A stretch of 64,000 bases of DNA from positions 2,429,001 through 2,493,000 of the forward strand of contig NZ_CP076668.1 in NCBI RefSeq assembly GCF_018968705.1, in the 5' to 3' direction. The notes below the pieces were generated by a model that saw only the letters and a program-made list of their open reading frames with translations, was not told the DNA's origin and ran no database searches. A program made the translations under genes and the position numbers. Numbering within the stretch: the stretch's first letter is position 1; every line of letters begins with the position of its first letter. The stretch comes from Pseudomonas lijiangensis (GTDB lineage: Bacteria; Pseudomonadota; Gammaproteobacteria; Pseudomonadales; Pseudomonadaceae). Below, piece after piece: positions 50,280-57,518 of this stretch.

Positions 50280-50387
50280 GGCGCTTCCCTCTGGTTTCGA
50301 CAGGCAGGCATGCGCACAGGAACCTGCTGACGGACGTCAGAAGGCTTCAACTGCGCCCGCCCACCGCGGGTGTGTCATTGAGTCAGT

Positions 50388-50560
50388 ATCGGGCCGGTCT
50401 CCGGGCTCGCGAGGGGTGTCGATATTGTGCCTCGACGCCTTCAGGATCACCTTCCCATGCCGTGGCACAGTGGTTCTGATCCTCTCTCGCTTACCGTTGC
50501 GGGGGCAGCACCGGACTGACTCATGGACAAATGAGCGCACCGGTTTCCCGTTTCACCCCG
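50388..50560 (-). promoter_or_regulatory. Cobalamin riboswitch upstream of cbtB
   Basis: Read on the minus strand, the conserved parts of an adenosylcobalamin riboswitch occur in order: GGTGAAACGGGAA (complement near 50545-50557), the B12 box GTGCTGCCCCCGCAACGGTAA (complement of about 50491-50511), CCACTG, GGGAAGGTG, and the closing GCCCGGAGACCGGCC (complement of 50391-50406). It should switch off cbtB-cbtA-cobE-cobM when cobalamin is plentiful. The outer limits are approximate. Confidence 0.93.
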
Positions 50561-50659
50561 TGAGGGGCACCCGTAACAAGTCGTGTAGGAGAGCATGGCG
50601 GCCCGTGAACGTCAATCTGAACGATTGACCTGCCTTCGACCTCTGCGTAGCCTTGCGCA

Positions 50660-50835
50660 CTTGAGGTTCTCGACCTTGTGCAAAAGGTCGGGCTAAGACG
50701 GGAATGCGGTCCAAGCCGCAGCTGCCCCCGCAACTGTAAACGGTGATTTCATTGCATGGCCACTGCGCGAGCGGGAAGGCGCGATGAATGCCTGTCCTGC
50801 CGACACGCCGCCGTAAGCCAGGAGACCTGCCTCGA
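50660..50835 (+). promoter_or_regulatory. Cobalamin riboswitch upstream of cobW
   Basis: Plus-strand adenosylcobalamin riboswitch: GAGGTTCTCGACC, AAGACGGGAATGCGGT, the B12 box GCTGCCCCCGCAACTGTAA (about 50720-50738), GGCCACTG (50758-50765), GGGAAGGC (50773-50780) and the closing GCCAGGAGACCTGCC (50817-50831). It precedes cobW by about 120 bases and should control cobW-cobN-chlI/D. It is back to back with the riboswitch on the other strand; the roughly 100 bases between them must hold both promoters. Confidence 0.94.
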
Positions 50836-50956
50836 ACCGGGCCACAGGCCCACGAATTCTCACTACAACCGGGCGGGGTGATCCGGTGGCGAATCGATCC
50901 GTGCGCAGCGCACGGTTCTCGTCCTGCTTGCCCGCCGTATTGCCAAAGGGCATCCG

Positions 50957-52069
50957 ATGAAAACACTGGCCAAACTTCCCGTCACCATCGTTACCGGCTT
51001 CCTGGGCTCGGGCAAGACCACCCTGTTGCGGCACATGCTCGATAACGCCGAAGGGCGTCGCATCGCAGTGATCGTCAATGAGTTCGGCGAGCTGGGAATC
51101 GACGGCGAAATCCTCAAGCAGTGCACCATCGGCTGTACCGAAGAAGAAGCCAACGGTCGCGTCTATGAGCTGGCCAACGGCTGCCTGTGCTGCACGGTGC
51201 AGGAAGAGTTCTTCCCGGTGATGCGTGAACTGGTGGCGCGTCGCGCTGATCTGGACCATATCCTCATTGAAACCTCGGGCCTGGCACTGCCGAAACCTCT
51301 GGTCCAGGCGTTCCAGTGGCCGGAAATCCGCAATGCCTGCACCGTCGATGCCGTTATCACGGTGGTAGACAGCCCGGCCGTTGCAGCCGGTACTTTTGCC
51401 GCCTTCCCGGATCAGGTGGATGCCCAGCGCAAACTCGATCCGAACCTGGACCACGAATCCCCGCTGCATGAACTGTTCGCTGACCAGTTGGCCAGTGCCG
51501 ATCTGGTGATTCTGAACAAGGCCGACATGATCGACGCCGAAGGTCTGGCTGCTGTACGCGCCGAAGTCGCCGAAGAGCTGCCGCCCGCGGTCAAGGTCAT
51601 CGAGGCCAGCAATGGTCGTCTGCCAATCAATGTACTGCTGGGCGTGGGGGCCGAGTCGGAGCTGCATATCGACGGTCGCAAGACTCACCATGACCATCAC
51701 GACGATGAGGATCATGACGACCACGATCATGATGTTTTTGATTCGATCTCTATCAAGCTGCCCCCAGCCGAAGAGGCTTTTCTCATGAACGTGCTGAACC
51801 GTATGGTGGTCCAGCACGGTATCCTGCGGGTCAAGGGTTTTGCCGCCATCCCCGGTAAACCGATGCGTCTCTTGATTCAGGGTGTAGGGACCCGTTTCGA
51901 CAAGCACTTTGATCGTGCATGGAAGGCTGATGAAGAACGTGCCACCCACTTGGTATTGATCGGCCAGGAGCTGGATGCTGTAGCGTTGGAAAAACAACTC
52001 TACGATGAGCTAGAGCGTGAAGTTTATGTTGCTCTGGAAGCGAAGCTCAATGCTGCGACTGCCGGCTGA
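50957..52069 (+). CDS. cobW: CobW-family GTPase of cobalamin synthesis
   Basis: G3E-family GTPase and metallochaperone, 370 residues. Walker A is GFLGSGKTTLLRHML (about 15-29), the metal motif GCLCC lies near residue 75 (NGCLCCTVQEEF), and the guanine specificity motif is NKAD near 190. A His/Asp-rich stretch (HHDHHDDEDHDDHDHD, about 238-254) is a probable metal reservoir. It is thought to deliver Co2+ to the CobNST-type chelatase; cobN follows after 3 bases. Confidence 0.95.
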   Translation: MKTLAKLPVTIVTGFLGSGKTTLLRHMLDNAEGRRIAVIVNEFGELGIDGEILKQCTIGCTEEEANGRVYELANGCLCCTVQEEFFPVMRELVARRADLDHILIETSGLALPKPLVQAFQWPEIRNACTVDAVITVVDSPAVAAGTFAAFPDQVDAQRKLDPNLDHESPLHELFADQLASADLVILNKADMIDAEGLAAVRAEVAEELPPAVKVIEASNGRLPINVLLGVGAESELHIDGRKTHHDHHDDEDHDDHDHDVFDSISIKLPPAEEAFLMNVLNRMVVQHGILRVKGFAAIPGKPMRLLIQGVGTRFDKHFDRAWKADEERATHLVLIGQELDAVALEKQLYDELEREVYVALEAKLNAATAG

Positions 52070-52072
52070 TTC

Positions 52073-55000
52073 ATGCATTTACTGAGAACCCAGCCGGGCG
52101 GTTTCGTACCCGACGACAGCATTGCCGACCTGGGGCAGACTCCGGCCGAGCTGGTGATTCTCTGCAGCGGCGATTCGAGCCTGGCCCTGCTGGCCGAAGC
52201 CGCGCAGCAACTGCCCGATGACTACCCGAGCCTGCGTCTGGCCAACCCGATGCAGGTGCAGAATCACGCCTCGGTGGACTTGTACGTCGATGAGGTGTTG
52301 CGCCACGCCAGGGTCATTCTGATTTCCCTGCATGGCGGTATTGGCTACTGGCGCTATGGCGTCGAGCGCTTGATGGAGCTGGCAGCCCGTGGCGTGCAGG
52401 TGATTCTGGTGCCGGGGGATGATCGTCCCGATCCGGAGCTGAGCGACCTGAGCACCGTGCCTGCCGAGGAGCGCGACCGACTCTGGCAGTTCCTGCGTCA
52501 GGGCGGCTTGCAGAATGCGCTGGACCTTTATCGTTGCATGGCCAGCAGCTGGCTTGAGCGCGATTACTCATGGGCTGAGCCCCAGCCACTGCCACGCACG
52601 GCCATCTATCACCCGCGCAAGGCGACGGCCACGCTGCCGGACTGGCAGGCAGACTGGACACCGGGGCATCCGGTGGTCGCGTTGCTGTTCTACCGCTCCC
52701 ACTTGCAGGCAGCCAACACCGGTTTCATCGATGTGTTCTGCGAGCGCTTGCAGGCTCAAGGGCTCAATCCCTTGCCGATTGCGCTGGCGAGTCTCAAGGA
52801 GTCGGGTTGCCTGACCATGGTCGAGGACTGGCTGGATGAAGTCGAAGCCGAGCTGATCCTCAATACCACGGGCTTTGCCCAGTCCAGCCCCGAAGCGCCG
52901 CATCTGCGACCGTTTCGTCGCAATGTGCCGGTGATCCAGGCCATCTGCGCCCAGGACAACCAGCCCGCCTGGCAGGCCAGCGAGCAAGGCCTCGGGGCGC
53001 GGGATCTGGCGATGCACATTGCCTTGCCGGAACTGGACGGGCGCATCATCAGCCGGCCCATCAGTTTCAAGGACCTGGCCTGGCGCAGCGAGCGCAGCCA
53101 GTCGGACGTGGTGTGCTATCGCGCCCATCCCGAGCGCATGGACTTCGTCGCGCAACTGGCACGACGCTGGATCGAACTGGCGCGACTGCCCAATGCCAGC
53201 AAGCGGGTAGCGCTGATTCTGGCCAACTACCCGACCCGCGATGGCCGGATCGGCAACGGGGTAGGGCTCGACACGCCTGCGGCGGCGCTGAATATCCTGC
53301 GCGCCATGCAGAGCGAGGGCTATCCGCTGGCGCTGTTGCCTGAAAGCGGCACTGCGCTGATTCAGCAACTGCTGGGCGGCGTCACCAACGATCTGGAGAG
53401 CATCGACCTGCGCCCTTGCCAGCAAAGCATGGCGCTGGACGAGTACCTTGATGCCTTCGATGACTTGCCCCAGGCCAGCCGCGATGCGGTGAATGCCCGC
53501 TGGGGTGCGCCACAGAACGACCCGATGTTCCGCAGCGGGCGGATGATGATTGCCGGTATCCGCTTTGGCCTGACCTTTGTCGGCATTCAGCCTGCCCGTG
53601 GTTATCAGGTAGACCCCAGTGCGGTCTATCACGACCCCGATCTGGTGCCGCCTCACGGTTATCTCGCGTTCTACTTCTGGCTGCGCAAGGCGTATGGCGC
53701 CCATGCGGTGCTGCATGTGGGCAAGCATGGCAACCTGGAGTGGCTGCCGGGCAAGGGCGTCGGTCTTTCTCAAGACTGCTGGCCCGATGCAGTGCTGGGC
53801 GCGATGCCGAATATCTACCCGTTTATCGTCAACGATCCGGGCGAGGGTGCCCAGGCCAAGCGCCGCACCCAGGCGGTCATCATCGATCACCTGATGCCGC
53901 CCCTGACTCGCGCCGAAACCTACGGCCCGCTTCGCAATCTGGAGCTGCTGGCCGACGAATACTACGAGGCGCAACTGCTGGACCCGCGCCGGGCGCAGGA
54001 ACTGCAACGGGACATTCTCAAGCTGGTGCGCGAAACCCGCATCGACCGGGAGCTGGCGCTGGACGAATCCATCGACAGCGACGCCGATGCCGCCATCTGG
54101 CTGCCGCGTCTGGACACCTATCTGTGTGACTTGAAGGAGTCGCAGATCCGCGATGGCCTGCATGTCTTTGGTCAATCCCCGCAAGGCCGTCTGCGTATCG
54201 ACACGCTACTGGCACTGCTGCGCATTCCCCGTGGCGATGGCCGTGGCGCGCAGTCGAGTTTGCTTCGGGTGCTTGCCAAGGCTCTGGCGCTGGACTTTGA
54301 CCCGCTGGATTGCGAGCTGGCCGAGCCCTGGAACGGTCCGCGTCCGTCCGTCTTGCTGGCAGTGAGTGGCGACCCATGGCGCACCACGGGCGATACCCGG
54401 GAGCGGCTTGAGCTGTATGCCGCGATTCTGATCGAACGCATCGTTGAGGCAGAGGCGATCGACGATCTGCCGGATCATCCTGAACTGGTGCTGGTTCTGG
54501 AAAGCCTTCGCGAGGTGGTCGCTCCGCGTCTGGATGCCTGCGGTCCCGAAGAGATGCGCGGTCTGCTGGATGCCCTGAATGGTCGTTTCGTACCTGCCGG
54601 GCCGAGCGGTGCGCCGAGTCGCGGGCGGCTGGACGTGCTGCCCACGGGCCGCAACTTCTTTACCGTGGATGTGCGCAACCTGCCGACCACTACGGCCTGG
54701 CGAATCGGTTTTCACTCGGCCAATCTTTTGCTGGAGCGCCATCTTCAGGATCATGGCGACCACTTGCGCCAGCTCGGCCTGTCGGTCTGGGGCACGGCCA
54801 CCATGCGCACCGGTGGCGACGATATCGCCCAGGCCATGGCCTTGATGGGCGTGCGTCCGGTCTGGGCGACCGGTAGCCAGCGGGTCGATGACTTCGAGAT
54901 TCTGCCCCTGAGCCTGCTGGATCGCCCCCGTGTTGACGTGACCTTGCGTGTATCCGGGTTCTTCCGTGATGCCTTTGCCAACCTGATCCGTCTGTTCGAT

Positions 55001-55837
55001 GCCGCAGTACAGGCCGTTGCCGCTCTGGATGAACCGGACGATCAGAATCCGCTGGCGGCCCGTGTCCGTGAAGAGCGCCGCAGCTTTCAGGAGGCCGGCC
55101 TGAGTGAAGACGAAGCGGCGCGTCAGGCGGGCTGGCGCATTTTCGGCGCCAAGCCCGGTGCTTATGGCGCGGGTGTGCAGGGTGCCATCGATGGACGTCT
55201 GTGGCAGAGCCGTGAGGATCTGGCCGAGGTCTATCTGAACTGGGGTGGTTATGCCTACGGCGCGGCTGATGAAGGCACGCCTGCCCGGCAGAACTTCGCA
55301 CAGCGCCTGTCCCGGGTTCAGGCCGTGGTGCAGAACCAGGATAACCGCGAGCATGACCTGCTGGATTCCAACGATTACTACCAGTTTCAGGGTGGCATGC
55401 TCGCTGCCGCCGAAAGCCTGAGCGGCCAGAAAACCGCCAGTTACCATGGCGACAACAGCCAGCCGGATCTGCCCAGGATTCGTACCCTGAAGGAAGAGCT
55501 GAACCGTGTGGTCCGCAGTCGTGCGGCCAATCCGAAATGGATCGAAGGCGTCAAGCGTCATGGCTACAAAGGTGCGTTCGAAATGGCTGCGACCGTGGAC
55601 TTTCTGTTTGCGTTCGACGCCACCACTGAACTGATCGACGACCACCAATATGCATTGCTGGCCGATGCCTACCTGCTTGATCCGTCGACCCGCGACTTCA
55701 TTCGCGAGCACAACCCCGATGCCCTGCGCGACATGACCGAGCGTATGCTCGAAGCCCAGCAGCGCGGCCTCTGGCAGGAGCCGGGTGACTATCGTGAAGC
55801 GCTGGAAGACCTGTTGCTGGATATAGAAGAGAGCTGA
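52073..55837 (+). CDS. cobN: Cobaltochelatase large subunit CobN
   Basis: Large subunit (1254 residues) of the ATP-dependent aerobic cobaltochelatase, which inserts cobalt into hydrogenobyrinic acid a,c-diamide. It shows the CobN/BchH pattern, including [19 protein letters not shown] near residue 555 and [12 protein letters not shown] near 1030. It requires an AAA+ subunit and a VWA subunit, which the next gene appears to supply. The stop overlaps the next start by one base (TGATG). Confidence 0.97.
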
Positions 55838-56856
55838 TGACAAGCATGACCGATACCCCGCATTTTCCCCTGGCAGCAGTGGTCGGCGCCGATGACTTGA
55901 AACTGGCGCTGTGCCTGACGGCCATCGACCCGAAAATCGGCGGTGTGCTGATCGAAGGGCCGCGTGGCATGGCCAAGTCGACCCTGGCCCGTGGGCTGGC
56001 GGACTTGCTGGCCAGCGGTCAGTTTGTCACCTTGCCGTTGGGTGCCACTGAAGAGCGGCTGGTCGGCACTCTGGATCTGGATGCGGCGCTGTCCGAAGGT
56101 CGTGCGCAGTTTTCCCCCGGCGTTCTGGCCAAGGCAGACGGTGGCGTGCTGTATGTGGATGAGGTCAACCTGCTGGCTGATCATCTGGTGGACCTGTTGC
56201 TGGATGTCGCCGCCAGTGGCACCAATCTGGTGGAGCGCGATGGCATTTCCCACCGTCACGCGGCGCGCTTCGTGCTGATCGGCACCATGAACCCTGAAGA
56301 GGGCGAGTTGCGTCCGCAACTGCTGGACCGTTTCGGTTTGAATGTGGCCCTGAGTGGGCAGACGTTGCCGACCGAGCGCAGCCAGATCATCCGCCGTCGT
56401 CTGGATTTCGATGCCGACCCTCAGGCTTTTTGTCTGGCGTGGCAAGATCAGCAGCAGGCTTTGCAGCAACGTTGCGAGCAGGCCCGTGCGCTGTTGCCTG
56501 CCATCGAGCTTGATGATCGTTCGCTGGGTCTTGTGACGGAGCGCTGTTTTGCGGCGGGCGTCGATGGCATGCGTGCCGATCTGGTCTGGCTGCGTGCTGC
56601 GCGAGCCCATGCTGCATGGCGTGGCGTGGGTGTGATCGAAGAGCAGGATATCGACGCGGTGGCCGAGTTTGCCTTGCGTCATCGGCGTCGCGATCCAGCG
56701 TCCTCGGCACAGAATCCCGAACCGCCAGCGCCCGGCCAGGCCACACCACAGGAACCTCAACCTCAGAACGGGCAGGGCAGTTGGGGTGAATTGCCTGCCC
56801 GGCCTGTGCCCACCGGTGCGCGCCGCGAAGTGCCGAGCTGGCCAAAAAAGCCCTAG
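55837..56856 (+). CDS. chlI: Mg/Co-chelatase AAA+ subunit (short, zero-frame product)
   Basis: AAA+ ATPase of the BchI/ChlI type, 339 residues. Walker [15 protein letters not shown] (about 41-54), Walker [12 protein letters not shown] (about 102-112), sensor region [20 protein letters not shown] (about 147-166). A Pro/Gln-rich tail (about 287-315) resembles the linker between the AAA+ and VWA domains of ChlD. The frame stops at TAG 56854-56856, six bases after a slippery A AAA AAG. It should power CobN. This is the product without frameshift; a longer product is described in the next two entries. Confidence 0.93.
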
Positions 56857-56891
56857 GCATCCGCCCTCGTTCGGCAAAGGGGGCGGATGCC
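56844..56891 (+). promoter_or_regulatory. Predicted programmed -1 frameshift signal
   Basis: The heptamer A AAA AAG (56844-56850) sits in the correct phase, with zero-frame codons CCA AAA AAG CCC TAG. A 5-base spacer leads to a 13-bp stem (56856-56868 with 56879-56891, one G-U pair) and a 10-base loop. Slipping back one base gives AAA AAA GCC CTA GGC and an open frame to 57518. These are the standard elements of bacterial -1 frameshifting. No strong Shine-Dalgarno-like stimulator is obvious upstream. Confidence 0.82.
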
Positions 56892-57518
56892 AGTCCCCGT
56901 CCTGGCAGGCTGACTTCCGGGCGTCATGGTGCGGCGCGTTCAGGCATCGATGGTGCGATTGCCTGGCTGCCGACGCTGTTGCGCGGTCGTCCACAAAGCC
57001 GCCGCGACCTGGTACGCCAGCCTCGCAGCAGTCGGCCGACCGAGTTGTTGCTGGTGATTGTCGATGCCTCGGCCTCGACACGTCGTCATCAGGCATTGAG
57101 TCAGGCCAAGGGCGTGCTGGCTCAGGTCTTCGACGAGGCCTATCGCCGTCGTGCCAGACTGGCGCTGCTGACTGCCAGTGGCAATGTTCCCCGGTGGAAA
57201 CATCAAGGCCTCAAGGCTTCGGCGGCATTACGGCCATGGCTGGATGCGTTGGGTGCGGGGGGCGGAACGCCGCTGTTCGCAGCCATCGAGCAGGCAAAAG
57301 ACTGGTTGAAAATGCGACACCAGCGTTATCCCGCTGAACATTTGCGTGTGCTGATCCTCACCGATGGCCGGGTCAAGGATATGCCTCCGTGTTCAGGGTT
57401 CGACTGCGAGAGTCTGCTGATCGATATAGAGAAAGGGCCTATCCGGCTTGGCCGGGCGCGGGAACTGGCGCTAAGGCTGGGAGCCGGTTACCGGCATCTT
57501 GAAGAGCTTCGCGAATAA
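56850..57518 (+). CDS. chlD: VWA-domain extension, read by -1 frameshift (ChlD C-terminus)
   Basis: The -1 frame from 56850 encodes 222 residues without interruption. It opens [16 protein letters not shown], a basic linker, then [17 protein letters not shown] and a von Willebrand A domain with MIDAS residues in VIVDASAS, the Thr in GGGTPLF, and Asp-Gly in ILTDGRV. No ATG, GTG or TTG occurs in frame before TTG 56979, and that one lacks a ribosome site. The full product would be about 560 residues (338 + 222), matching an AAA+-VWA chelatase subunit. A stand-alone 179-residue protein from 56979 is the alternative. The last codons (CTT CGC GAA TAA) lie inside repeat copy A5. Confidence 0.8.

Follow-up and report, generated by a model that had tools for sequence, protein, structure and literature searches.

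A frameshifted chlD gene, very probably encoding two cobaltochelatase subunits, in the cobalamin operon of Pseudomonas lijiangensis

We find that the gene directly downstream of cobN in P. lijiangensis is very probably a frameshifted chlD gene (fs-chlD) of the cobalamin operon, in which a −1 shift gives the small and the medium cobaltochelatase subunits from one gene. Ribosomes keeping to the zero frame would stop at a TAG codon and release a 339-aa ChlI/CobS-like AAA+ subunit, while a fraction of them would slip back by one base on the heptamer A_AAA_AAG, aided by a hairpin 5 nt downstream, and continue into a ChlD/CobT-like subunit of 560 aa that includes a VWA domain. Both products, together with CobN, would constitute the cobalt chelatase that serves aerobic B12 synthesis. 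That slippage takes place, its rate, and the action of both products with CobN we infer from published relatives.

A frameshift in Pseudomonas chlD is already known, and the present gene is a correct rediscovery of a published case. In PMC3711429 (2013), Pseudomonas is named in a cluster of 23 Mg-chelatase −1 frameshift genes that are annotated as two adjacent genes. According to PMC5009743 (2016), strong purifying selection acts on the A_AAA_AAR site in genera that include Pseudomonas, and PMC9227772 (2022) places P. aeruginosa at stage 8, with a frameshifted chlD supplying the small and medium cobaltochelatase subunits. The first-pass annotation of this DNA had called the mechanism known in principle, which is too weak, the case being published for Pseudomonas itself.

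Results

Two overlapping frames and their junction

The window (the whole 64,000-nt stretch of P. lijiangensis DNA analysed) contains a ChlI-like AAA+ open reading frame followed by an overlapping VWA frame in the −1 register. The zero-frame ORF (55837..56856, + strand) encodes 339 aa (36.5 kDa), the ChlI-like small subunit, which is also the shared N-terminal part of the long product. A Walker A motif, GPRGMAKST, was recognised in it by eye at 55957-55983; the product matches three ChlI/BchI chains with E values of 3e-80 or better and, in ChlD models, the N-terminal halves. The −1 frame opens at 56790 and closes with a stop at 57518, and the part that would extend the small subunit (56850..57518, +) consists of a basic linker and a VWA_2 domain (57048..57368, +; PF13519, E 2.1e-8) with the MIDAS motif DASAS (DxSxS) at 57063-57077. 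This part also matches the BchD chain (60-kDa Mg-chelatase subunit) of PDB 2x31 (E 2.9e-7). The first-pass annotation's reading of an uninterrupted −1 frame leading into a VWA domain with a MIDAS site is thus borne out. Joined at the slip site, the computed translation is 560 aa long (60.8 kDa). Scored separately rather than as the joined product, the two halves reach 414.8 and 66.7 bits with the full-length ChlD model TIGR02442 (cut-off 779.45) and 243.4 and 45.8 bits with TIGR02031, also full-length ChlD (cut-off 499.55), all below the cut-offs.

At the junction the zero frame reads CCA AAA AAG CCC TAG, with the slippery heptamer A_AAA_AAG at 56844..56850 (+) and the stop codon TAG at 56854..56856 (+). 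A presumed stimulatory hairpin follows after a spacer of 5 nt; its 5′ arm (56856..56868, +) and 3′ arm (56879..56891, +) form a stem of 13 bp, GGCATCCGCCCTC / GGGGGCGGATGCC, around a 10-nt loop. The 51-nt junction folds at −28.9 kcal/mol, against a mean of −18.5 kcal/mol for 200 dinucleotide shuffles (z −3.74), none of which folded as well. Heptamer, spacer and stem therefore stand, by sequence and by fold, where the first-pass annotation had put them. The bare string AAAAAAG is not rare, with 4 occurrences in the 64-kb window against 4.54 expected, and its scarcity cannot be invoked for the site; phase, position and conservation exclude chance instead. An Rfam scan of the junction found no family.

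The heptamer is conserved across Pseudomonas

The VWA part was present in 279 of the 298 Pseudomonas genomes searched. We examined 100 of these loci, one per genome, in a non-random sample made up of the 30 best matches (including the window), 30 of the weakest and 40 hand-picked from the listed middle. A_AAA_AAG stood in phase in 96 of the 100, 92 found by script and four (L041, L061, L062 and L063) by inspection; these four were among seven loci that the script had flagged as lacking AAA AAG near the alignment end. The A-rich slippery site is thus under purifying selection. Within the same family, all ten further loci carried A_AAA_AAG, six of them from the genus Pseudomonas and four from two other genera.

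The surroundings of the heptamer are as regular. In 91 of the 93 parsed loci the zero-frame stop lies exactly one codon past it (TAG 67, TGA 23, TAA 1); in L032 the stop follows directly, and in L031 it comes 21 nt on. The preceding codon varies yet nearly always ends in A: CCA in 74 of the 93, GCA in 11, CAA in three, ACA in two, and TCA, GAA and CCC (L060) once each, with CTA also seen. In the same genes, A-ending codons make up 6-28% of the Pro, Ala, Thr and Gln codons (CCA 12.8% of Pro, GCA 9.4% of Ala), 2% of the Leu codons and 45% of the Glu codons. In 105 of 107 loci the −1 frame stays open for over 180 codons from the heptamer onwards, the exceptions being L048 and L060.

The four loci without the exact heptamer also have a disturbed frame relation. 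L060 has C_AAA_AAG, a VWA part broken by frame changes, and the cobN of its genome in two pieces. L059 reads A_GAA_AAG, with the VWA part in another frame relation, and comes from a genome that is 86% complete. L085, from a genome 95% complete, has a five-A run and several frame breaks, and its cobN is in pieces as well. In L070 (genome G215) a five-A run places the VWA part in the +1 frame of an otherwise intact gene. L070 is the only clean counter-example among the four, and its five-A run may stem from an error of one base in sequencing or from a genuine loss. Frame breaks also occur where the heptamer is kept, upstream of it in L041 and within the VWA part in L048, L053 and L058.

Such indels in relatives, together with a single −1 offset at a homopolymer, the usual signature of an error, might suggest that a formerly fused gene has been split, either by an error in sequencing or by a frameshift mutation of recent date. 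The recurrence of the identical heptamer and offset in 96 of 100 genomes already refutes this reading, to which we assign practically no probability.

A hairpin with compensatory change lies downstream

The register of the window's hairpin fits 90 of the 107 loci with a located heptamer (at least 9 of 13 positions paired). Among the 84 distinct sequences of the 90, 1019 of 1092 cells pair. Over 2000 shuffles of the right arms the mean was 997.5 and the highest count 1007; registers slid along the same 84 sequences pair in 408-549 cells. The 90 rows are related and were chosen for pairing, so that only the comparison with shuffles counts, and the excess over right-arm shuffles is modest, most columns being nearly invariant. 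One stem pair does vary in a compensatory manner (C-G 48, U-G 14, U-A 22). The remaining 17 loci have shorter or shifted stems of 5-10 contiguous bp, apart from L060 with 15 bp out of register.

Folding energies agree with a stable, covarying hairpin, whose stimulatory role is presumed. The median over the 107 junctions is −28.4 kcal/mol, as compared with −16.4 kcal/mol for 856 control windows from the VWA region, and folds of −24 kcal/mol or lower were found in 71% of the junctions versus 4.8% of the controls. The idea of a triplex, raised in PMC5009743, found little support: no purine run in the 3′ arm exceeds 6 in any of the 107 loci, and in 40 of them none exceeds 3.

Separate translation of the VWA part

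Databases annotate the VWA half as a protein of its own, of varying length, under names such as 'VWA domain-containing protein' and 'magnesium chelatase subunit ChlD' (among 120 listed of 1169 matches), just as the first-pass annotation had expected of a gene split in two. The VWA part might accordingly be a separate gene, translated either from an independent start or through termination-reinitiation where the frames overlap, and a passage of PMC3711429, which does not name the cluster concerned, mentions initiation at the downstream gene alongside frameshifting in some experiments. In the window, however, just two ATG, GTG or TTG codons of the −1 frame fall between junction and VWA match: TTG 56979 and, right at the domain boundary, TTG 57045. 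Neither has a visible Shine-Dalgarno (SD) site, as had been claimed at first pass; a script that covered TTG 56979 found no start with a 4-nt SD match in the window, and for TTG 57045 we saw none by eye.

Across relatives, an ATG or GTG with a weak SD-like match of at least 4 nt occurs in the open −1 frame of 31 of 107 loci (before the junction in 18, at or after it in 14), and a start codon of any kind with a match of at least 5 nt is confined to five of the 107. At or after the junction no start position is common to more than five loci. A conserved start codon with a ribosome site, which the first-pass annotation had named as evidence that would tell against frameshifting, did not emerge from the 107 loci. 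Separate translation would, moreover, leave the conserved heptamer and hairpin unexplained, and we consider it very unlikely.

SD-matched start codons were also seen at codon −21 in 19 loci (GTG 8, ATG 6, TTG 5). We set these aside: in L058 the codon straddles a zero-frame Trp codon, and in the window a −1-frame TGA (56787-56789) comes after that position. Among the 19 loci this judgement is based on L058, read by eye, and it draws further on the window.

Other families of the order

Outside the family, 48 matches were obtained in the same order; we viewed 18 loci and assigned fused or split status from open-frame lengths, since motif regular expressions missed some (L116 was marked split with an open frame of 667 aa). 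In thirteen of the 18 a single open frame spans 560-667 aa, a length that would accommodate a fused gene. The other five are split, with an open frame of 222-278 aa, and have six A's before G (L120), nine (L117, L125) or ten (L123, L127). Junction folds there are weaker (−12.1 kcal/mol in L123, −15.8 in L125 and −4.5 in L127), a run of nine or ten A's and a G replacing the six A's, G and long stem.

A run of 9-10 A's is long enough for slippage by RNA polymerase. The occurrence of such runs at the same place in the split genes L117, L123, L125 and L127 might thus be taken to mean that the second frame is reached through slippage of RNA polymerase on the A-run and not of the ribosome. The window, however, has only six A's, with a spaced hairpin and the A_AAA_AAG phase typical of ribosomal shifting, which makes a transcriptional origin of the second frame extremely unlikely.

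Operon and genome context

A cobalamin riboswitch (50647..50848, +; Rfam RF00174, 101.4 bits, E 3.4e-24) lies ahead of cobW (50957..52069, +; TIGR02475, 531.6 bits, above cut-off), cobN for the large cobaltochelatase subunit (52073..55837, +; TIGR02257, 1749.5 bits, above cut-off) and chlD, and the stop codon of cobN overlaps the ATG at 55837 of the ChlI-like ORF (TGATG). The riboswitch is one of two that stand back to back and face outwards, the other at 50375-50589 (−), each scoring about 100 bits.

The genome has cobN and no separate gene for the small subunit. Its sole close ChlI-like match is the fs-chlD gene itself, the two others being weak (E 1.7e-5 and 1.8e-5). The VWA part has no second relative anywhere in the genome, and whole-genome searches for CobS (TIGR01650) and CobT (TIGR01651) gave no matches; Caulobacter vibrioides, the positive control, matched in both. 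The first-pass claim that CobN is present with no separate ChlD or CobS/CobT in view therefore extends from the window to the genome. ARAGORN scans covering all 61 tRNA matches of the genome gave two tRNA-Lys genes, both with the anticodon UUU, and no tRNA-Lys(CUU) gene.

In other Pseudomonas genomes fs-chlD and CobN go together. CobN scored above the TIGR02257 cut-off in all 26 tested genomes with fs-chlD, albeit in pieces in G033, G051 and G244. Among the 19 genomes without fs-chlD, 11 had no CobN match (three of them 73-78% complete), six had only a low-scoring relative whose open frame measures about 1400-1490 aa, and two (G272, G283) had CobN within 0.1-0.8 kb of a contig end, on the side where the following gene would lie.

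The long CobN-like protein of the six genomes, below the CobN cut-off, is encoded at L180:3807-8150 and in G059, G081, G179, G184 and G241. In L180 (1447 aa) it is probably not the B12 chelatase, since inspection by eye suggests an N-terminal signal and, at the C-terminus, a membrane segment.

Discussion

These results confirm a published recoding event on 100 Pseudomonas genomes, where annotation still splits the gene in two. A better annotation for the VWA half would be the C-terminal portion of the medium subunit of cobaltochelatase. The Pseudomonas site could also be a regulated switch, with the small-to-medium subunit ratio set by cobalt, B12 or the folding of the hairpin, as distinct from lineages that rely on runs of nine or ten A's or on a fused gene; we regard this as unlikely.

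The present gene resembles the Mg-chelatase frameshift genes described in PMC3711429 and PMC9227772, where a −1 shift on a poly-A site joins a ChlI-like part to the rest of ChlD. In PMC3711429, three frameshift-gene cassettes with 11, 9 and 7 A's gave 63, 40 and 10% shifting in E. coli. The present site differs in having six A's, a G and a long stem in place of 7-11 A's; otherwise only the species differs. Closest of all is the P. protegens chlD hairpin printed in PMC5009743, CTAGGCATCCGCC...GGCGGATGCC, with its A_AAA_AAR shift site, which is nearly identical to the present one and departs from it by a few bases of the upper stem and loop. The same source describes E. coli dnaX, likewise with A_AAA_AAG and a stem-loop, the site being read by the sole tRNA-Lys. 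The shift in dnaX yields the shorter product, whereas the shift in chlD would yield the longer one.
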